DNA from: Cenococcum geophilum 1.58
Taxonomy: Eukaryota > Ascomycota > Dothideomycetes > Gloniales > Gloniaceae
Assembly (NCBI GenBank): GCA_001692895.1
Contig: KV748267.1
Location: 186,001 to 250,000, forward strand
Reading direction: 5' to 3'
DNA length: 64,000 bases
In this document: piece after piece, positions 5,624 to 63,075 of the stretch
Position numbering within the stretch: the first letter of the stretch is position 1
Layout of the letters: each line of letters begins with the position of its first letter
Made by a program: the position numbers and the translations under genes
Notes under the pieces: generated by a model
Database searches by the model: none
What the model was told of the DNA's origin: nothing
What the model saw: the letters and a program-made list of their open reading frames with translations, nothing else

Positions 5624-6469
5624 ATGGCATCAACCGACAACGGCGTTCTCACATACCACGTCGTTCCTCGCTTCGACATCGCTGCCAAAGGCGGTCCTCT
5701 TGCGCTCGGCATCATTGTCACCGACCTCAAGCGCCTCATCCCCCTCAACCGCAAAAGCCTCGCCGAAGTTCCTGAGGAATTGATGTACGAGCCCGTGACC
5801 CAGACTGACTTTAGAGATACCCTTGCTAAGGCCCGCGAAGCGAACGTTAATGCCTGGGTCAAAGCCGTCGGGGTTCCAGTCGGTGGCAAGGCTGGCGTCG
5901 GGGGATCCAAAGACGTTGAGTCGACCGTGTCATGCGAGTCCGTCGTGACGACGTACTTTGATCCGGACCCAATGGGCGTATATGTCGCCAAGAGTCTCAA
6001 GGCGGATTCGATCCAGTCGTGGCTCGAGGCAGCGAAGCAACGCACAGCGGATTTGTACTTGGTGACTGGCCTCAAGGTCGCCAAGAAGCTGAGGTTCAAC
6101 AAGGATAGTAATGCAGAGGCTCACGCTGGGGCGGAGGCGTCTGCACAGGAGTCGTACACCAATGCTGTAGAAGCCGGGCTCGTGGGTAATGTGGCGGGTT
6201 CGAACACACACAAGCTAGAGTTTGGAGTGGATGATATCGTACTCGGCTACAGGGTGAATAAGTACCAATGCAAGCGAGTGTGGTTCAGCGAGAACTGGAA
6301 TACCAAGGACAAGGGGCTTCTGGATGGGAACATGCAAGGCGACGAGGAGGATGCATCACAAGAGCCGGAAACGAAATTCGAGTTAGTGCCCATTTCAGAG
6401 GTTGTTATCGCGGAGAAGCACGCCATTGATGCCGGAGAGATCGAATGCTGGCTTCCTCCTATCGTTTGA
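5624..6469 (+). CDS. Gasdermin-like pore-forming protein (HET-Q1/RCD-1 type)
   Basis: An intact, intronless 281-residue ORF. The pattern fits a fungal gasdermin: a compact beta-rich protein without signal peptide. It has alternating small/polar stretches that could form membrane-inserting hairpins (about 77-112, rich in Gly/Val/Ser/Thr, and 143-192). A strand-helix-strand passage carries LYLVTGLKVAKKLRF (144-158), and a late strand reads DDIVLGYRVNKYQCK (203-217). Length is close to the about 280 residues known for Podospora HET-Q1. The last 45 or so residues (acidic linker 238-250, then FELVPISEVVIAEKHAI) would be the short inhibitory tail that a protease removes. The neighbour, convergent with 55 bp between stop codons, is a subtilisin-like protease; this is the known het-Q1/het-Q2 pairing. 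Fold assignment is from pattern recognition only; the gene pairing raises confidence. Confidence 0.7.
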   Translation: MASTDNGVLTYHVVPRFDIAAKGGPLALGIIVTDLKRLIPLNRKSLAEVPEELMYEPVTQTDFRDTLAKAREANVNAWVKAVGVPVGGKAGVGGSKDVESTVSCESVVTTYFDPDPMGVYVAKSLKADSIQSWLEAAKQRTADLYLVTGLKVAKKLRFNKDSNAEAHAGAEASAQESYTNAVEAGLVGNVAGSNTHKLEFGVDDIVLGYRVNKYQCKRVWFSENWNTKDKGLLDGNMQGDEEDASQEPETKFELVPISEVVIAEKHAIDAGEIECWLPPIV

Positions 6470-6524
6470 ACATGGCATTGCGTTATGTCGTTTGTAGTCA
6501 TAATATCCTTTTCATTGTTCTTTT

Positions 6525-9500
6525 CTAATCTCCAAGTATTGCAACTCGGCGTAGCTTTTTGCAGACATTCTCAGCAGTATTCCCCGGACTCCACAGATCG
6601 TTTATCCAAGGCATGATGTTATGATAAATGCTGTTATCACTATTGGCCGTCATGTGGTAGCGGAACAAACCACTCATAGACTTATATGTAGTGAACAAAT
6701 CCATGGTCTCCGGCATCATGCATCTTGTGAATTCCAACACATTCGCAGCGATCGCAGCCGCAATCGGCGACGCAAACGATGTCCCGGATATCGAAATCTT
6801 CTTTCCGTCCCAATGTGATTCAATTTCATGTCCGAGAACAGCAAAGTTGTGCTCCATTTCGAGGGGTGTCGGGTTCATGCCAGGAACGTCTGTTGCAAAC
6901 TCGTTCATTGCGTGAATACAGAACACACCAGGCTGGGTAGCGGGCCACGAGCGCGAGCCGTTACCACCTGTATTCGACGCGGCGGCAAATACAAGTTTTC
7001 TCGCACCAACAAGGCGGGCGATCTGGTCATCGAGCTCCTGTATATGCGTCACACGAAGGCCGAAAGACATATTAATAATGTCGGCATGCTCGCCTGCCCA
7101 CTTCAGTGCCTGCCAAAGTTTGATCAGTCCATTAGAATACATGTTGCCCAAGGAAGACGCCGAGCATCTAGGAGCCTCACCTTAACTAGCTGAGTAATGT
7201 TCGTGGTCTTCAGGGATCTCGTATTAGTTATTTTGGCAACGACAATCTCGGCTCGCGGCGCGAATCTAAGTAGGATTCGAGCTACGTGGGTGCCGTGGCC
7301 GTGATGGTCTTCCCAATCATCTGGATCGGGCTCTGGATCTGGATCTTCAAGACCAGAAAGGTCGATAGGTTGAAAGAAATTTCTTTTCTCTTTAATTCTT
7401 CCCTGATCCACGAATTGCAGTAATTCGGTGTCTTCCCCGTCTTGGTCATCTTGAAAAAATCCAGTGTCAATTATAGCAATCCGAACTTTTTTTCCGCTTG
7501 CGTCCCCGCCCGTCGACTCCGGTAGTTCCTCGATATGGGATCTCAAGAATGTTTTCATCTTGGTAGTAAACATGTTTTCGCTTGTGGAACGGTCGGGGTT
7601 TTTTTCTTCGATCTTTTCGCTATGCTTGTCATCCCCGGAAGACCAGAGCTCATACTCTGATATGGTAAATGGTCGAGCCCCCATCCCCGAAGGAGAACCT
7701 ATTCCAGCGGTGAAGCTGTCACCAATTCCTTGAATTTGATGATCTCGGGACCCCCAGACCTTGATATTTTTCTTAAGCGGAAGAACGATGTTCTGAAGGA
7801 TGACTGATTGTGCCCTTAACTTCTCGTCTGGAGTCCGCTGTGCCTCGGTGTTGTAGTTTTGCAAATAAAAGAGGCAACCTTCAATGGCTTTTCGGTACGA
7901 CTCCATTAGCTTGTCTCGAAAGAATCTCATCTTGAGCTCGTCAAATAGCATATCGTACCATTCTTCGGATTTAAGCTCTCCGGAAAATCTACCGTCACTC
8001 TCTCCTTTTGCAAGTTCTACCAATAACTGTGCGAGCGATAGGAAAAACCTAGGGCAAATTTCCGTTTCGCAGTATTCTGGATATACTTCCGGGAAGCTGA
8101 TACGATCTCTCCAGTCCTTCCTAAGAACGCACGAGACGTATGTTTCATAAAGCATCTCGATTGGCCTGGTTTCAGGTGCTTGCACTATGTACAGCAAACT
8201 AGCACTCCATTCTTGGTGGATCCAAGGTCCTGGGTACAATTGATGCAATGATGAAGCTAGTCGAAAGGCTAAACGGAACTTTCTAAGTATGTCTTCTGGG
8301 TCAGTTGTTTGTAAATGGTTCTCTTGAAGCAGAGTCTCTAGTTTGACATCTGTTTTGAGTTCTTCAAAACTTGATAGAGATCTAGAAGATTGTTCTCCGG
8401 GTGATTGATCATCGAGAGAGTTCAACGTATCCCAGGATTTATCTTTATTAAACGATAAGCGTAACGGTGTACGGCGCCTACAATGCAATGGGAATTTGCT
8501 GCATATATCAACCGGTTTCCTATTTGCGAACTCCGGTGGTTCAGACCTAAGTCGACGGTCAGCAGGACTCAAGTATAGAGAAGAGATCGGTTACAAACCT
8601 TTCCAGGGTGCATGTTGTTTTGTGCCACTTTTCCGTCTCATTTTGGGATGTACTACCACAGCAGCAAGACAGAAACAAGTTAAATACGATATCGTTTTTG
8701 GGTGAACTTTCGATGTCGTTTTTGGACGAACTCTTGATATCTTTCTTGGAAGGGCGCTTGATATCTTTTGTGGGAATTCTCTTAAAACCAGACAATTGAA
8801 GAAAAGCGTGGTGCTCTTTCGCAGGACACATCCGGTTTGCCAGGATGTCATATAGCAGCTCAGTAGGCATTTTCTCTTCATCGGTTTGTTCCTCACTGGA
8901 GTTATCGGACTCAGGCTCAAAGGAGGAGGGAAAGAAGTCTTTGTAGCGCCACTGCTCCTTGATCTTGTTCAAACCGGTCAGGCTAACAACTTGGGCCCGC
9001 AATTTATCCAGCGACGGAGGGACAAGCCATGAGCGGAGTTTTGGATCGGAACGTCCTTCCTTGAAGACGGAATCGGCAAACTGATTGAGTTTTTCGATGG
9101 GATCATTGGTATTAGTTGGAATCGAGGCTCTTGATGAATCTGTACCCGGTATCTAAATTCTTCAGTTAGCCACATGTTCATCCAATCACGCTCGAAGCGG
9201 ACATCACATGAGCGGAGTTTTGGATCGGAACGTCCTTCCTTGAAGACGGAATCGGCAAACTGATTGAGTTTTTCGATGGGATCATTGGTATTAGTTGGAA
9301 TCGAGGCTCTTGATGAATCTGTACCCGGTATCTAAATTCTTCAGTTAGCCACATGTTCATCCAATCACGCTCGAAGCGGACATCATACACGGGAACCATA
9401 TTCCGAAACTTCATCCTTCACTGCCCTTTCGATTATCAGCCAATCTGTATCCTTCGATTGGGCTGGCTGCGCATCAGCGGCCAGGTTCAATTGATTGTTA

Positions 9501-9676
9501 GTCCCCGTCGCTTCAGGCAACACGATTTCAAAGCAAAGGAAATCAAGGTCATTCTCCTCATTGATCGCATCATCGTCCAGATCATCAACTTCCCTCGAGT
9601 CTGGAAGTTTGGCTCGTCGCAGCTCGGGGTAGACTTGCCTATTTGCGAACTGAAGTAGCTCAAGCTCGGCTTTCAT
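6525..9676 (-). CDS. Subtilisin-like (S8) protease with NLR-type helical N-terminal domain (HET-Q2-like)
   Basis: Exons (minus strand): 9676-9389 (possibly extended upstream), then to 8599, 8546-7181, 7109-6525. Introns 7110-7180 (phase 0) and 8547-8598 (phase 2) have GT-AG ends and branch-like ctgat/ctgac. The catalytic triad is complete: Asp in IAIIDTGF (codon 7466-7468), His in HGHGTHVA (7295-7297), Ser in SGTSFASPIAA (6777-6779), with oxyanion Asn in AASNTGGN. The upstream about 550 residues are mainly helical. The passage LASSLHQLYPGPWIHQEWS resembles the fungal helical domain I know as DUF7580, found in NLR-like and HET-associated proteins. No signal peptide is evident, so it is likely cytosolic. 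A regulated subtilase beside a gasdermin suggests it cleaves and activates it. The N-terminal region contains a 179-bp duplication (9028-9385). The true first exon is uncertain. Confidence 0.75.
8688..8778. repeat. 24-bp minisatellite inside the protease gene
   Basis: Units begin at 8688, 8712, 8736 and 8760, each starting gatatc or gatgtc. In the minus-strand protein they encode 8-residue repeats of the form (S/T)-(P/S)-K-(N/K)-D-I-(E/K)-(S/R), between the N-terminal part and the helical domain. In-frame repeats of this kind commonly vary in copy number between isolates. Confidence 0.75.
9028..9385. repeat. Perfect 179-bp tandem duplication in the protease gene
   Basis: 9028-9206 and 9207-9385 read identical by eye. 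Each copy contains the same intron acceptor (minus strand, after gaatttag at 9153 and 9332). The donor gtatga at 9388 lies just outside the duplication. Splicing from 9388 to the distal acceptor at 9153 removes the extra copy and keeps frame (…EYGSR joined to IPGTDSSR…NQFADSVFKEG). Using the nearer acceptor shifts frame unless a further 65-bp GT-AG segment is spliced out. An assembly error is also possible. Confidence 0.85.
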
Positions 9677-10084: not shown

Positions 10085-10982
10085 TTATCTCATAAATCAG
10101 ACCCTCGGGGGAGCGTTGGTACGTGCACTACGCGCACGGGCGGGCATACTGCTCCTTATTAACCAACGAAATTCTCCCCCGAGGGTCTGAGAGCTTATGG
10201 GCGTCGCTTTGGTGAGAATGTAGCGTTAAAATGCAGCAAAAATCACCTTTTTCACTGCTGTATCTCAACTATTTTACAACGTCTAGTTATTATAAAAATA
10301 CTACGAGGTAAGAGCTCTTTAGCTTCTCTATCTATTGCATTAAAAAATAACGTTGTAGCTATATTATATAAAATATTAGATATAGGCAGTCGGTCGCATT
10401 TATGGTCAGTATTTTATCGCAATTTTGTTACAATTTTGCCTTACTGCCGTACCTTATATACTTCTCTACATCTAATTATTTCTAAAATACTATAAGCTAA
10501 AAGCTCTTTATTTTCTCTATCGCCTCTACGTTACGGCAATATTATAGCTCTATTTTATAAGAAGTTAGATATAGGTAGTCGGTCGGTTTTAGTTAAAATC
10601 TACAGATCCGTAAAAACATTTAAATTGAACATCTGACTTACGTTCTGCGACGATGTATCTCGCCCCCTAGTATTCTTAGTAGGGGGTTATAATTTATAAA
10701 TATATAGATATGATTACCTAAAGAATCTATTGCATCAATAAAATATATAATAGGTCTTATGGTTAGGACGTCGCTCGTAAAAATACACAAAATTTAATTT
10801 TTAAAACATTCAAATCTCACCAAAGCGACGCCCATAAGCTCTCAGACGCTCCGTTCAGAATTTTTAAATATAGGGAGCAGATATGAGTGATTTTCTAGTG
10901 TGCCCGCCCCGTAACCAAGTACGTGNTGATCTAACTGAGTTCGGTTAAAATTCTGCTACGGAGCGTCTGATTCATGAGATAA
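10085..10982. mobile_element. Non-autonomous hAT-like foldback element (898 bp)
   Basis: The ends are 18-bp inverted repeats TTATCTCATRAATCAGAC (one mismatch), flanked by an 8-bp direct repeat CCTCCATC (10077-10084 and 10983-10990). An 8-bp duplication is typical of hAT transposons. Each end is also a hairpin: arms 10098-10113/10174-10189 on the left and about 10843-10864/10947-10969 on the right. A perfect 31-bp inverted repeat (10187-10217 versus 10815-10845) pairs the inner flanks. The interior is AT-rich and contains no transposase. It separates the protease gene from the zinc-finger gene. Superfamily is inferred from TSD length. Confidence 0.75.
10281..10600. repeat. Two diverged direct repeats inside the foldback element
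   Basis: A unit of about 115 bp occurs at about 10281-10400 (tctagttatt…attagataggtagtcggtcg type ending) and again at about 10468-10580, a period near 187 bp. A related ending also occurs at about 3345-3395. Differences are mostly transitions. This may be subterminal repeat structure of an autonomous parent. Confidence 0.55.
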
Positions 10983-11211
10983 CCTCCATCTGAGTTTGAA
11001 ATGACTGGCAATTACTGGGTCACCACAGCCATAATGTGTGAACCTCTTTAATGAACCAACTTCTTACTCTGGCATCTTCCATGCCTCCGTTCCTTTTCAA
11101 TACACGGATCTGAAAATTGGAAGTTGGAGTTGAAACCATGGCTTCCGCTCCTGTAGAAGCCGACGAATCGAGGGACGAAAACCCCATCTCATCAGCCCAA
11201 GATATCTATTC

Positions 11212-14200
11212 GTGACGATGGTACTGGAGGAGTCCTCCACATGCGTTTCCTGCTTACATAAGCAGAGTCCCTTCTTGTTCGGTCTCCGCAGCAACTACTT
11301 CGGTATCCGTAGTAGTCACCCCGGACCCCGTAGATATAGGCCTATATCAAGGCCTATATTCCTCATAGATAGATTCGATAGCTTCATTCATTCATTCAAT
11401 ATTATTCAGTTCATCAATTCGCAGGCTCGACAATGTCAAAAACTTTTCGTGGAATATCTGAAGGAATCAAGAGCATACAGGAAACAGGTCTCCGATTCGC
11501 AGCACCGATTCCTGACGTGGGCCAGTTTTCTGGGAGCCTTCGCCAGTGTGAATGTCTCTCTTGATGCTCGCCTTAGGCATGCTCCGGACATCAAAGAGCT
11601 GATGTTGGCGATGCTCCGGGTTCTAAGGAGGAATCTTGAGCGTGGTAAGTAGCCTTGATTCAGTCTTGGGCTTGATAATTAGAGTAGGTTACTGAAGAGT
11701 CCAAATTCAGCCATTCGCCGCCATGTCCTCGTGGATCCTAGGAGCAGCAATACTATCAGAGCAGATAATGAAACAGTAATGATCGATGGCGCCATTTATG
11801 GGATGACTGGGGCCATAGATCGTCTCCATCGACTTGCCACTGCTATTCGACAATCTCCAAGAACAGATGAGGTGGAGAGAGTATTGAATTTTGCCAGCAA
11901 ACGAGAGCCTGACGGCTTTTCGACCTTCATACTAGCAATGATTCAGTACCTTTTTCCAGATGCCGAGGAAACGTTGCAAACCCAGCTAACGGAATCAATC
12001 ATATATCGGCGTAACCGGCTCCTATGGAGTCTAAAACACTCCAAGAAGCTAAGATACCAGAGAAAGGATGACGAAGCCAATGAGCCGGTGAAGGAAAAGA
12101 CGCCAGCAGCTATCGTACTGTCAGAGTTTAATTCCAGTCTGCAAAACCGGGATGCCCTTCCGTCAGTCGAAACGGGGAGCAATTATTCATCCACTGTATT
12201 TTCACAGCGACAATTGGGTGGAATTGTCAATAAGAATCACGAACGTGTTCAACTGACGAGCCGGGAAGACGACACAACTAGCGCTCGTTCCTCTAACCCC
12301 CCTCCGACTGCTCAATATCCCGATGTTCCTCGGATCGCCGCTGGTGAAACAAATTTGTATTGCAAGTATTGCCTCACAGATGTAAAGATTGAGGTGAACA
12401 CATCCAAAGAGAAAAGGGAGGATATATGGAAGTTTGTCTCTCACAAGTCAAAAGGAAGTACATGTATTGACTACCTTCAGGAAGCACATAGATGCTGATT
12501 TGCGACCGTTCGTATGCTGCTCCGAAGAATGCGGGAAATTTCCACCCGCTTTCTCGAGTACCAGAAATTGGAAGAATCATATGCAAGAAAATCACCGGAC
12601 AGACTGGGCTCAATACATTCATCGTATTACATGGCCTTGTCCTTACTGTAAGGGTGCAGTGACACCCTTCCTCACAGAAGATTTACTAGTCCGCCATCTC
12701 AAAGATGATCTCGTAGGTGGCCATCCAGCAGGACTGGATAACATCAATCTTGCCAAGATAGTAGTGAGGCCCAACTTTTCAAATCCCAGACCCCTTGGCG
12801 AGTGTCCTCTATGCGGTCTTCCCCCGCCCTGGAAAGACCCGAGAAAATGAGTAATGTATCAGTCGCATCCATTGAAGAGGGAGATGCATCAATCGAAGCA
12901 TCAAATACCTCCATTGGACAGCCTGATGTCTCTGACATGCAACCCGATACCCCCAGCGGGCAGGCAGAATCGTCCAACGAACAGCCCGAAGATTCCTCGT
13001 CGCGCTTCGACAAGCACTTCGCCAACCATTTACGGCATCTTGCATTCTTGTCGATTCATTGGTGGGGCGTCGATACCGGGGAAACGGGGGACGAGGTAGA
13101 CGGCAGTGATAAGTCGGATGATGCAATTGGATTTAACTCGGAAGGAAGAGCGACTTCGGAGATAAACCATTCGCGAGAGGATTGCTCCAACACCTTCGAC
13201 AAGCAGCCGGAACAACAAACAAGAGAGCAAGGTCCTAGTCTTTCCGCTAGTCATGCGCATTCGCGGGAGAGTCTCCCTAGCCAGCCGTCAGCGGGCCCAG
13301 ACCGCCGAAGAAGCCCCTACCCTACCGTCAGCTCGGCATACTCAAGAGAAGATCTCTCGAGGCAACAGTCTGAAAGCCCTCGCGGCATACTTAAGCCAGA
13401 GAATCCAGCATCAGCGGCTTCCAGCTCTTCTGATCCGCAAAACTGGAAGACTGAAGCGGCAATTTGTGACGTCTGCAAGAATTCAATACAGTGCTCACAG
13501 GCCAGAGTCCAATGCACTCAATGTCCTGACTACGACCTTTGTGTGACATGTTTTAAAAGGGGCCGAGCCTCCAAAGATCATAAGACTAGCCACAAGATTC
13601 GTCACATCCTGAAGACACAGATACTCTGGCAGGAGGACCTGACGCCGCCAAACGATATCGTTAACCCCGAATGGAACTCAGCCAGAACTAGGCGCAACTG
13701 GACTGCTGACGAAGCGGGAAGTGGTGCAGAAGCTAGAGACGTTCGATGGCTGCATCTTCACGGCAATCAGAGCCATGCTCGTTTCTTTACCTCGAGCATC
13801 CCCCCTGGGCATTATGCCATTACAATCGCAATGGAGGTGCAATTATCATCACAGCTGAATGGAGCAAGCAAAGCGCGGCTCAGAAAAGACGGTGCTGGCT
13901 GTCTACGAGTAGCGTTAGGCGTACCAAATGACAAGAAGATGTTCTTCAACGGACGATATCGTGAAGAGGCATTCAACTCGGTAACCTTGACTGAGGATTC
14001 CTTTGTTAACAAACTGCTGAGCGGCAAGGAGTACTGGTGGGATGTTATCAACTTAAGTGTGGATCAGCCTACCATACAGATCGCTTCCGATGTTATGTTG
14101 AATCTGGACAGCGATACTCAACACGAATTTGACCTTGGCCTAATCCTGCAGTGGTCTGGAGTTGCGGCCTTTGAACGGCTGAATGAGGCTGTAGTAAAGC

Positions 14201-14691
14201 TTTGCGTGGTGCAGATTCGGTAAGCTGACAACCCGGGCCTACGTTTCACTATTTCCTTAATCTCAGTCTTCGTTAATAACTCTCTTCGACAACTGGATTG
14301 ATGCTGCAGTAGACTAGACGACCTGCTCGACTACGAGGAGCCTTTTGTCCCAGCGCCTTTATCGGAAATATCCCGTCCTTCCCCCACGCCTCATCCCCAG
14401 CCACAGACTACCGAACCAGAGGACAACAACGAACCGACGGACGAGGACTGGCTTGAAGCGTTAGACCAGATTCGGCAGCAAGTTACAGACGCACGGCAGC
14501 GAGCGGCCTTAGAGGCAATCCTGATGCAAAAACTGCAGCAAGAGAGGGAGGAGCGGCGGGAAGCTATAATAGCCGCTCTCTATTTGCGAGCTGCGCTGGA
14601 AAATCGGGCGAAAGAGGAAGAGCAAAGGCGGCAGCAGGAGCAGGCGCAAGCAGAAGCTTTGAGGATCTTGCGGCTTCTTGGCTTGAAATGA
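11212..14691 (+). CDS. Large C2H2-type/ZZ zinc-finger protein with C-terminal coiled coil
   Basis: Exon model: 11212-11644, 11711-12431, 12481-12815, 12863-14219, 14310-14691. It totals 3228 nt with all phases matching. The donors gtaagt (11645) and gtaagc (14220) are strong; the join at 12816-12862 (gtcttc donor) is weakest. N-terminal helical region (FLTWASFLGAFASVNVSLD, DIKELMLAMLRVLRRNLE) and a basic YRRNRLLWSLKHSKKLRYQ segment are typical of a common fungal zinc-finger family. Exon 3 has paired Cys/His motifs (LYCKYC, FVCCSEEC, HMQENH, WPCPYC). A ZZ finger lies at about 13465-13590 (CDVC…CTQC…DLCVTC…HKTSH). An unrecognised beta-rich domain follows (13740-14200), then a Pro/acidic linker and a long Arg/Glu/Gln coiled coil ending LRLLGLK. 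Role unknown; ZZ fingers bind peptides or ubiquitin/SUMO-like partners. The start codon is uncertain: an upstream ATG near 11140 has a good context and could belong to an earlier exon. Confidence 0.75.
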
Positions 14692-14872
14692 AGGCGGTTA
14701 AGACGTTTAGAGCGCCGTGTCATCTGTATTATGCTGATCGGCGATATCACGCTACTCTTTATGCTCTCTTAAATTTTACCAAATATATCAGGCTAACAAA
14801 TAAATCTAATCTATCTCATTATCGCCATCCTAATTATCATAAAACTAAGGATATCTCCAGCAGTATGTTTAG

Positions 14873-60839: not shown

Positions 60840-63002
60840 TTAAGAGGAGGCAGCAGCGGCGGCATTCACCACCTCGAACTCTCGAACCTCGAGAAACTTG
60901 TTGGCGCCATGCTTCTGGAGCCGCCCGGATACCTGCACCGCCACTCCCGGATGTTCTGCCACTGCCGCAGAGAGCTGTGCGTACGCGTCGGCCTCAACAT
61001 TGGATCTCGGTTTAGGGGCCTTCGCTGCCCTGTCCCACTCGATTTTGCTGGTTGCCTGGAACGGCTCAAGGACCAGTTCCGGACGGGTCGACGTGCTGGC
61101 CAGCGTCAGCTGCTCGCCGGTGTCGAGCTGTTTTTTGGTCACCACGCCTGAGAGTGTCATTTCGATCCCGCGCATATCGTACGCGCCACTGGCAATCTTC
61201 TGAAACTCACTCCGCCACAAGTCGATGTCGGGCAGGATGTCCTGCCGCAGGTAGACGAAGGCGACAGAGTCAACTTGGTTCGGCATCGGGCGGACGACCT
61301 CGACGTCGCGGATATGCTGCAGTGCTTCGAAAGCCCCACCCCAGCAGGGACCGAGACCATACGGACAAACAGGTGTAAGGCCTACAACGACGGCTGGTCG
61401 CTCCTGTCGCTCCTGTTCGGAGATGATTTTTTCGTTGAGCGCTGGAATGTTGATCTCAACATGTTGTTCCACGGCTGTGCGTCTCGCAAGGACTGCCGCA
61501 GACGTGGGTGGTGCTGGTGTACTGGCTGGTTTGATGCGGATAATGGGCGCCACCGATGGCACACCTTGCTGGTTCAAGACGAAAAGCATATAGTGGCCTG
61601 GTGGGGCGAGGTTGGCGTTGGCTGGAGCCTGTACGGCGACCTTCGAGCCCTCCTGTTGGAAATCCAGGAATATGAGTAATTGGTTCATGTTGCATGCATG
61701 CGTAACGGAACCGAGCCGTACCCAGCTCACCCTCGCGATTACGTCATTGGCGCCGACAGTGACTTCGAACTTCTGACCGTAGCTGATCTCGGGCGGCGGG
61801 TTTGAGATGGTCGGCCGGGGGGCGGGGCCCTTGTCGTTGAACAGGTAGGGCGGCCTGAACAGTTGCGCACTCTTGAGGGAGTCTTTGGCCGCATTAGGAT
61901 TGCTCCCAATTGCGAATTCTCCGCTACCGGCCGAAAGGACTTGGCCATCGGGCAGCAGCAGTGCGATGGAGTGGTAGCAGCGATCTGCATCCTCTTTGGC
62001 CATCTGGGTCCATTGCTTGCTAACGGGGTTCCACAGCTCGGGTACATGCACAGGCATGCCGGTTTCTAGATTATTGAAACCCTTGCCTTGGGTACCTCCA
62101 GTCACCAGCACGGTGCCGTCAGGCAACACGGTGGCGTTGTGCTGTCGGCGTGCAAACCTGAGATCCGCCGTCGTCGTCCACTTTGGCGTTTCGGCGATCA
62201 AATCGATGATCTCTGTCATCTTGGTGGGAGGATCGGAATCGCCACCTCCGCCACCAATGTACATAATCTTACCTTTGTCGTACATAACCGAAGGGGCGTA
62301 TTCGCGCCCGCCCGCCGTGCGTTCCGGTCCATCTGTTGTCCAAGCACCTATACCGCCGGGAGTGTTCACATCGAGAAACCGCGACCGTGCCTGCGGCCCA
62401 GCCATGAAGACTCGGCCCTTTGGATCGAGATGTAGTCGCGGATAAAGAGAGAGAACACCGGCACCGGGGCTTGCGACGGGCACCCAGTTATCTGTGCCCC
62501 AGATCTGCGGGTTGGGGTTAGGGGCGGAGTTGTTGGTTGTGTTGCCCGAGATGGAGAGCACGCGGCCATCAGGTAAGGTCAGAGCGGAAGGATACCAGCG
62601 ACCCGCATTCATAGGCGCCTTGGCGGACCATGTATCGGCGACGGGATCGTAAACACAAGCCTGGTCGAGCCCATTACCATCGGAGATATGTCCACCGACG
62701 ATGAGTAGGCTGCCATCCGGCAGAAAGCAATGTCCGGAGCAGAAGAGATTTACGGTTTCGGCTTTAGTGCCAAGCGGTTGCGACGCGGTGGCCTTGCTCT
62801 TGCCGGTGCTGGGATCCCAGATAAAGGCTTTGGTGAAATGCTCGTTCAGCGACTCGGGCTTGGTGTCCTTGGGATTGGAGCGCCGACCCCAATAGAGTAC
62901 CTTGCCGCTAGGCAGCAGGCTGGCGTGAGCAGCGACATTTTCGAGATCGAACAGTGGTCCCCATTGCCCGACGTCTTCTGCAGCTGCCATCTTTGCTTTC
63001 AA
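60840..63002 (-). CDS. Copper-radical oxidase (galactose/glyoxal oxidase type, AA5) with extra C-terminal domain
   Basis: An intronless 720-residue ORF. Kelch-type beta-propeller repeats (LPDGSLLIVGG, LPDGRVLSISG, LPDGTVLVTGG, LPDGQVLSAGS) are followed by the immunoglobulin-like DUF1929 domain (about 396-492). The copper and radical ligands of the family are present: Cys88 (LFCSG) and Tyr137 (GRWYPS) for the thioether, Tyr343-His344 (CYHSIALLLPDG) and His435 (VTHACNMNQ). The enzyme would oxidise alcohols or aldehydes to aldehydes or acids with O2, releasing H2O2. No signal peptide is visible, unusual for a family that is mostly secreted. Residues about 505-720 form an additional domain (with CPYGLGPCWGGAF near 546) that I do not recognise. 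Met5 is an alternative start. The lack of introns is compatible with bacterial acquisition but is not proof. Confidence 0.88.
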   Translation of the reverse strand: MKAKMAAAEDVGQWGPLFDLENVAAHASLLPSGKVLYWGRRSNPKDTKPESLNEHFTKAFIWDPSTGKSKATASQPLGTKAETVNLFCSGHCFLPDGSLLIVGGHISDGNGLDQACVYDPVADTWSAKAPMNAGRWYPSALTLPDGRVLSISGNTTNNSAPNPNPQIWGTDNWVPVASPGAGVLSLYPRLHLDPKGRVFMAGPQARSRFLDVNTPGGIGAWTTDGPERTAGGREYAPSVMYDKGKIMYIGGGGGDSDPPTKMTEIIDLIAETPKWTTTADLRFARRQHNATVLPDGTVLVTGGTQGKGFNNLETGMPVHVPELWNPVSKQWTQMAKEDADRCYHSIALLLPDGQVLSAGSGEFAIGSNPNAAKDSLKSAQLFRPPYLFNDKGPAPRPTISNPPPEISYGQKFEVTVGANDVIARVSWVRLGSVTHACNMNQLLIFLDFQQEGSKVAVQAPANANLAPPGHYMLFVLNQQGVPSVAPIIRIKPASTPAPPTSAAVLARRTAVEQHVEINIPALNEKIISEQERQERPAVVVGLTPVCPYGLGPCWGGAFEALQHIRDVEVVRPMPNQVDSVAFVYLRQDILPDIDLWRSEFQKIASGAYDMRGIEMTLSGVVTKKQLDTGEQLTLASTSTRPELVLEPFQATSKIEWDRAAKAPKPRSNVEADAYAQLSAAVAEHPGVAVQVSGRLQKHGANKFLEVREFEVVNAAAAASS

Positions 63003-63075
63003 CGTGGGTGAGTGGAATGTAATACTAGCTAATGTTTAAGCTCTCTTGAGTTTAAGGACGAGAGCAAGATCGCGC

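Follow-up and report, generated by a model that had tools for sequence, protein, structure and literature searches.

A pair of neighboring genes in Cenococcum geophilum, an ectomycorrhizal ascomycete that lives in soil on tree roots, very probably encodes a gasdermin executioner and its own activating protease. The pair lies in a 64,000-nucleotide stretch of strain 1.58 (G000:C92:186001-250000), here called the window; positions are those of the window unless a contig is named. We base this reading on the gasdermin homology of the first product, the intact catalytic triad of the second, evidence that the protease product is spliced, and a tight linkage of the two genes that is conserved elsewhere. 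A third, receptor-type gene lies beyond positions 5624..9676, to which a first-pass annotation of this DNA had been confined. Judged from their sequences, the three genes resemble a compact, autonomous circuit for cell suicide. The genome searched comprises 177 Mb in 162 contigs, and loci are named by contig (C1, C5, C24, and so on). The features of the pair are as follows.

5624..6469, plus strand: fungal gasdermin gene, single exon, 281 amino acids; pore-forming part at about residues 1-235 and acidic tail at about residues 236-281 (boundary inferred)
6525..9676, minus strand: protease gene, 930 amino acids; exons 9676-9389, 9152-8599, 8546-7181, and 7109-6525
7760..8852, minus strand: DUF7580 region, protease residues 197-543, spanning exons 2 and 3; Pfam expectation (E) value, 1.2e-32
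6702..7495, minus strand: Peptidase S8 domain, protease residues 632-872; Pfam E value, 1e-18; D641, H698, N782, and S847

A fungal gasdermin with a short acidic tail

The open reading frame (ORF) at 5624-6469 on the plus strand is intact and intron-free, and comprises 281 codons. A Pfam scan of its product was silent and a PDB search with the single sequence gave no match, so that profiles were needed for detection. A search of a database of 5.8 billion protein sequences returned 63 homologues at an E value of ≤0.001, the query's own sequence included; given these 63 database proteins, we concluded that the ORF is no chance frame. The organisms named among the homologues are ascomycetes. The nearest other homologue, P0002, is 76% identical and lies on a 4,969-bp contig.

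A profile built from all 63 homologues matched five PDB chains, namely, four chains of RCD-1 (best E value, 1.3e-7) and a beta-lactamase (E value, 0.77). We built a second profile from 26 of the 63 database proteins together with six paralogues from the C. geophilum genome. All seven of its PDB matches were gasdermins: the top match was the pore chain of HET-Q1 from Podospora anserina (9uv9; E value, 1.5e-15), followed by four RCD-1 chains (E value, 1.5e-14), 7n52, entitled “Gasdermin” and presumably a bacterial gasdermin (E value, 0.034), and the bacterial gasdermin 9v2s (bGSDM; E value, 0.051). The NCBIfam model prok_gasdermin matched the protein weakly (E value, 0.02). Since the family profile matches solved gasdermins in seven of seven cases, with HET-Q1 first, we concluded from this homology that the 281-residue product is a fungal gasdermin. 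The first-pass annotation had proposed an intact 281-codon gasdermin-like gene at this position, and profile homology to solved structures, which here stands in for a fold prediction, bears it out.

The alignment to the HET-Q1 pore chain reaches position 229 of the 281 profile positions. Residues 236-281 lie outside the aligned part and form a tail of 46 residues (5.1 kDa) with a net charge of about -10. According to passages of PMC10989679 and PMC12881547, HET-Q1 (278 amino acids) is cut at F238 and loses 40 residues, or about 5 kDa, a loss close in size to the tail described here.

A spliced subtilase with a DUF7580 region

The protease is not encoded by one ORF. Joining four exons on the minus strand gives 930 residues, with the stop codon at 6525, so that the gasdermin and protease genes lie tail to tail with 55 bp between them, as had been annotated. 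Protein database cluster P0064 (930 amino acids) is 100% identical to the protease over 100% of its length, with an uninterrupted frame. Its source label is “lgn,” which we take to denote Logan assemblies of sequencing runs, and it represents 54 contigs that reach 4,148 bp in length. The unbroken 930-residue frame implies that protease transcripts are spliced and thereby supports the four-exon model.

One feature of the gene bears on how intron 1 would be spliced.

9028..9206 and 9207..9385, minus strand: perfect 179-bp tandem duplication spanning the intron 1 acceptor; bypassed on splicing to the distal acceptor

The repeat duplicates the intron 1 acceptor. Use of the distal copy keeps the reading frame; we rejected splicing at the proximal copy because the frame is then lost. 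The duplication may be real and tolerated by splicing, or it may be an assembly artefact.

Subtilisins can be aligned with the S8 domain (85 sequences at an E value of ≤1e-10, of which the best 60 were inspected). In the protein database searches with the protease and with the third gene, the best 8,000 candidates by shared words were scored, so that more relatives may exist. Among 20 aligned sequences, the protease's own included, D641, S847, and N782 are invariant and H698 is at least 90% conserved. We concluded from this alignment that the S8 domain is complete and has the full Asp-His-Ser triad (D641, H698, and S847) attributed to it in the first-pass annotation.

The same annotation described the N terminus of the protease as NLR type, and this part of it fell. 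Up to an E value of 1, Pfam reported DUF7580 and S8 alone in the protein, with no NB-ARC or NACHT domain. DUF7580, which the annotation had put forward as a search target, was matched at residues 197-543 (E value, 1.2e-32), and the region is weakly kinase-like.

Linkage of gasdermin and protease genes

Two gasdermin queries found the same seven places in the C. geophilum genome. Merging of the subtilase matches left 15 genes, and six of the seven gasdermin places have one of these within 3 kb; under random placement the probability of this is about 2e-19, although the events are not strictly independent. The pairs are tail to tail at C92 (the window), C65, C24, and C5 and head to head at C102 and C1. 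Exons were joined at the C92 locus only, and the other proteases are described by ORF. Upstream of the S8 domain, DUF7580 shares a frame with the beginning of that domain at C92, C65, and C24. Elsewhere, the upstream ORF has an ankyrin match at C5, a TPR match at C1, and no significant match at C102.

Linkage of the two genes, on which the first-pass annotation had staked its proposal, thus recurs within the genome, and it extends to five other species in which gasdermin and protease homologues lie on one contig: Xylariaceae AK1471, Xylariaceae FL1651 (tags 412140/412143), Trichoderma barbatum, Fusarium decemcellulare (g8292/g8294), and Lasiosphaeria ovina. “Same contig” was judged in these species from identical contig sizes. 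These pairs account for at least 5 of the 23 protease matches from outside Cenococcum, a lower bound, as clusters hide contigs and more distant gasdermins fall outside the search. The linked homologues have about 30 to 60% protein identity across species.

These data bear on the alternative that the neighboring genes are functionally unrelated and linked by chance or by recent duplication. The loci at C102 and C1 do seem, by eye, to be duplicates of one block. Nevertheless, neither the figure of about 2e-19 under random placement, with its imperfect independence, nor the recurrence of the linkage in five other species at about 30 to 60% identity fits this explanation, and we regard it as extremely improbable.

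At C102 (L018 1066-3402) and C1 (L021 800-3151), a HET-domain gene lies directly beside the gasdermin gene, with a divergent protease gene on the other side. This arrangement is perhaps another three-gene kind. We did not adopt the HET-domain gene as a conserved gasdermin partner because HET matches are abundant (at least 150 in the genome; 150 scored of 439 candidates) and because the two loci look duplicated.

Relationship to known gasdermin-protease systems

According to passages of PMC10197012, about 1,900 fungal gasdermins (fGSDM) occur in 400 genomes, about 80% of them clustered with proteases and about 63% with S8 proteases. Proteases fused to “predicted kinase-like domains,” as well as two- and three-gene clusters, receive a general mention in passages of PMC12881547. 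The pair described here has the same genes, the same proximity, and a multidomain protease, and we concluded from these sequence features that it belongs to the known fGSDM/Q2L class; it differs by the added third, receptor-type gene that accompanies the gasdermin. Bacterial gasdermin-protease pairs are alike in gene pairing and logic (passages of PMC10197012 and PMC12881547), whereas the homology of the gasdermins themselves is distant (9v2s, E value of 0.051; 7n52, E value of 0.034; prok_gasdermin, E value of 0.02). RCD-1 of Neurospora crassa has a homologous pore-forming domain, but it works by the pairing of two allelic variants, without proteolysis (passages of PMC12881547).

The closest characterized system is HET-Q1/HET-Q2 of P. 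anserina, likewise a gasdermin and an S8 protease. HET-Q1 is the best PDB match, is of similar length (278 versus 281 amino acids), and has a tail of about 5 kDa. It is thus conceivable that the C. geophilum pair is a het-Q-type incompatibility locus that polices strain fusion, other isolates carrying a different idiomorph or allele. The protein classes equal those of HET-Q1 and HET-Q2, and the 76%-identical gasdermin P0002 could be regarded as such a variant. However, passages of PMC12881547 describe het-Q1 and het-Q2 as idiomorphs, i.e., alternatives at one locus, whereas here the two genes adjoin in one genome. Moreover, HET-Q2 has 388 amino acids (passages of PMC10989679), and the protease here has 930, with a DUF7580 region. 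We therefore consider an incompatibility locus quite unlikely. The HET-Q-like module of the first-pass annotation stands as a pair of the fGSDM/Q2L class, without the idiomorph arrangement of het-Q.

A third, receptor-type gene accompanies the gasdermin

The third gene is divergent from the protease gene and carries a repeat near its 5′ end.

11138..14692, plus strand: third, receptor-type gene; conserved N-terminal region without a Pfam domain, followed by a ZZ finger
11213..11416, plus strand: solo-long terminal repeat (LTR)-like repeat of 204 bp with TG...CA ends, flanked on both sides by the 5-bp sequence ATTCG

Among the candidates scored, the third-gene query found four proteins, its own P0089 and three relatives that match the N-terminal part (model residues 1-519) at 43 to 50% identity. 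All three relatives, which come from outside Cenococcum, share a contig with a gasdermin homologue: in Xylariaceae AK1471 (505789, with the gasdermin at 505782), where a protease homologue is on the same contig too; in Gaeumannomyces hyphopodioides (007010, with the gasdermin at 007012); and in Fusarium sp. NRRL 66182 (6006, with the gasdermin at 6005). For the latter two species, no protease homologue was found among the candidates scored. Because it co-occurs with gasdermins in other species, the third gene product would probably be an upstream regulator of the DUF7580 protease.

No Pfam domain was found in the conserved N-terminal part in relatives P0090-P0092. Its Cys/His-rich segments are C2H2-like by eye only; Pfam called no C2H2 finger in P0090-P0092. 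The C termini of the relatives differ, with a protein kinase domain (E value, 2.7e-19) in one, a C14 caspase domain (E value, 9.6e-14) in another, and a DUF676 esterase domain in the third, which also bears a kinase-like stretch under the Pfam cutoff. The bearer of the C14 caspase-type domain is P0091 (G. hyphopodioides RB595_007010), whose His and Cys motifs seem, by eye, to be complete. NB-ARC was not matched in the two third-gene exon stretches of the window that were scanned or in P0089-P0092. It is present in paralogues of the third gene at C6 and C46, and the receptor N terminus is therefore also carried by NB-ARC proteins.

In strain 1.58, the frame that begins at the first ATG (11138) is closed at codon 26, after 25 residues. 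That of the middle part runs to a stop at 12848, and the downstream frame opens at 12847 in a different register; the “lgn” open frame P0089 starts exactly at 12847. The 204-bp repeat has other copies in the genome: among the best 40 of 181 candidates scored, its own included, the 39 others are 88 to 98% identical to it, and six same-strand pairs are about 5.4 kb apart, the spacing of LTR-element ends. The relatives elsewhere run through without a break. From the solo LTR and the frame break, we concluded that the third gene is probably broken in this strain, its 5′ exon structure being uncertain.

This state of the third gene raises the possibility that the locus is decaying, the gasdermin and protease being relics or acting without control. 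The 204-bp insertion, the stop at codon 26, the stop at 12848, and the start of P0089 at 12847 in another frame all agree with it. On the other hand, the gasdermin and the protease each have an intact frame, and that of the spliced protease stands in 54 contigs; an uncontrolled protease would, moreover, be expected to kill. Decay of the whole locus is thus unlikely.

Between the protease and the third gene, at 10169-10863, lies an inverted repeat with 49-bp arms that are 90% complementary and 597 nucleotides apart, together with direct repeats spaced by 189 bp. These repeats resemble a non-autonomous element and occupy the divergent promoter region.

Receptor-type genes pair with DUF7580 genes across the genome

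Searches of the genome with receptor N termini alone gave 19 gene places after merging of neighbors, some of them weak (E values up to 0.006). Seventeen of the 19 have a DUF7580 gene or a hydrophobic N-terminal region within 6 kb, and 15 of these 17 are divergent; the exceptions without a partner are at C11 and C20. Such proximity is expected by chance at about 0.002 per gene, although family duplication means that there are fewer independent events than 17. The C termini of the receptor paralogues vary, with NB-ARC and DUF7779 at C6 and C46, WD40 at C1 and C27, and TPR at C65. After merging, DUF7580 occurs at 31 places (two C65 genes counted once), of which 13 have a receptor-type gene near; DUF7580 therefore also occurs outside this pairing.

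The DUF7580 genes are of at least two kinds. The first has a hydrophobic N-terminal region that starts like MSGIEIAGLVLGAIPLVISALEHY. A search with this region found 14 places, including two weak matches of 29 residues each. In 10 of the 14, a DUF7580 match follows directly downstream, and 12 have a receptor-type gene near. One further case of a hydrophobic N terminus with DUF7580, at C27, was seen by motif. N termini were examined for these 14 places and C27. We rejected a HeLo, HELL, or MLKL reading of the hydrophobic region, as none of these was among its eight PDB matches up to an E value of 10.

The second kind is fused to a subtilase and is represented by the genes at C92 and C24 and the second gene at C65, each of which adjoins a gasdermin gene. 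Neither the window nor L019 gave a match to the hydrophobic region, and the match in L017 (C65) had an E value of 0.34. Among the DUF7580 matches other than the three fusions, the neighboring C65 gene alone has a gasdermin or subtilase within 5 kb. There (L017/L030; C65:896993-909538), two DUF7580 cassettes lie side by side, one of the hydrophobic-N-terminus kind and one of the protease/gasdermin kind. Together with two receptor-type genes, five such genes are thus packed into about 12.5 kb and may form a fungal defense island.

DUF7580 as a possible pseudokinase-like domain

A profile of 10 DUF7580 stretches from the C. geophilum genome was compared with PDB. All 35 matches at an E value of ≤10 were kinases or kinase-like proteins: IRAK4 (from an E value of 0.0015, the best), BIK1 (0.083), MLKL (from 0.38), and SYMRK (1.5). 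Alignment with hhalign of 30 DUF7580 rows to 15 kinases from the same genome gave a probability of 32% (E value, 5e-4), compared with ≤0.7% in five control comparisons, and, read by eye, the catalytic loop and helix F lie within a collinear stretch of the alignment. The Pfam kinase models matched none of the 10 DUF7580 members. The kinase catalytic-loop motif is HRDxKxxN; these residues are absent from the DUF7580 region of the protease, where the aligned segment is HQEWSASL. We concluded that there is a moderate case, from profile comparison, for DUF7580 as a pseudokinase-like domain. A literature search for DUF7580 found no paper.

MLKL, the pseudokinase of necroptosis, offers a comparison: it is matched weakly by the DUF7580 profile (E values of 0.38 and above), and at least 10 protease-free DUF7580 genes have a hydrophobic N terminus. 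This is a resemblance only, the hydrophobic N terminus having no PDB match to MLKL or HeLo.

A model for the three-gene locus

By analogy with HET-Q1/HET-Q2 and with the P. anserina CHAT cluster, as described in passages of PMC10197012 and PMC12881547, we infer how the pair would act. The gasdermin would be made as an inactive protein of 281 residues, with the short acidic tail at its C terminus as the restraint. A signal, most likely relayed by the receptor-type protein, would reach the DUF7580 N-terminal region of the protease, and the subtilase domain would then cleave the gasdermin linker at about residues 236-246. The released N-terminal domains would then assemble into a multimeric pore in the plasma membrane, which would kill the hyphal compartment.

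The pairing of 17 of 19 receptor-type places, together with the two kinds of DUF7580 gene, suggests one signaling pair with two interchangeable death outputs. We propose tentatively, with a little less than even confidence, an inflammasome-like three-gene circuit in which the receptor-type protein controls a DUF7580 partner whose outputs, a hydrophobic N terminus or a subtilase plus gasdermin, can replace each other. The receptor would consist of a constant N-terminal region and an exchanged C terminus (ZZ at this locus; kinase, caspase type, or esterase in the relatives; NB-ARC, WD40, or TPR in paralogues). Its DUF7580 partner, possibly pseudokinase-like, would usually be encoded divergently. 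At 10 or more loci, the hydrophobic N terminus of the DUF7580 gene product would act on the membrane itself; at three loci, DUF7580 would instead carry a subtilase that fires a gasdermin.

Several observations weigh against these readings. The NCBI protease model P0065 (Cenococcum geophilum 1.58; 726 amino acids, partial) differs from the 930-residue model. The seventh gasdermin place, C24:1664679 (L016, C24:1660000-1669900), is 1.6 Mb from the nearest subtilase match; a CHAT partner for this orphan was rejected, as the contig has no CHAT match. In Colletotrichum camelliae (P0036 and P0080) and Trichoderma sp. SZMC 28014 (P0020 and P0069), the gasdermin and protease homologues are listed on different contigs, and the two may not be partners. 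For the wider circuit, the kinase-like signal of DUF7580 is weak (E value of 0.0015; hhalign probability of 32%; Pfam, 0 of 10), and the broken third gene may leave the circuit incomplete in this strain.

Other features of the window

The GC-rich right end of the window holds, at 60840-63035, a 731-amino-acid gene that is galactose/glyoxal-oxidase-like and has kelch repeats. Beyond 14.7 kb, the list of stop-to-stop frames with 160 or more amino acids has two entries, both in this region.

Implications

A receptor-type partner gene is not described in the passages available from reviews PMC12881547, PMC10197012, and PMC10989679 and may stand in the primary literature (Clave 2022). For the exchange of a hydrophobic N terminus for a protease plus gasdermin, no description was found in the literature searched, most primary papers being outside it. 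The control of gasdermin-firing proteases is named as future work in passages of PMC12881547. Linkage points to a likely controller, the receptor-type gene with its constant N terminus and exchangeable ends. The C. geophilum genome is a natural experiment in this respect, with related receptor/DUF7580 pairs that have either a hydrophobic N terminus or a protease and gasdermin. If the proposed circuit is correct, one signaling pair would lead to necroptosis-like death at some loci and to pyroptosis-like death at others.

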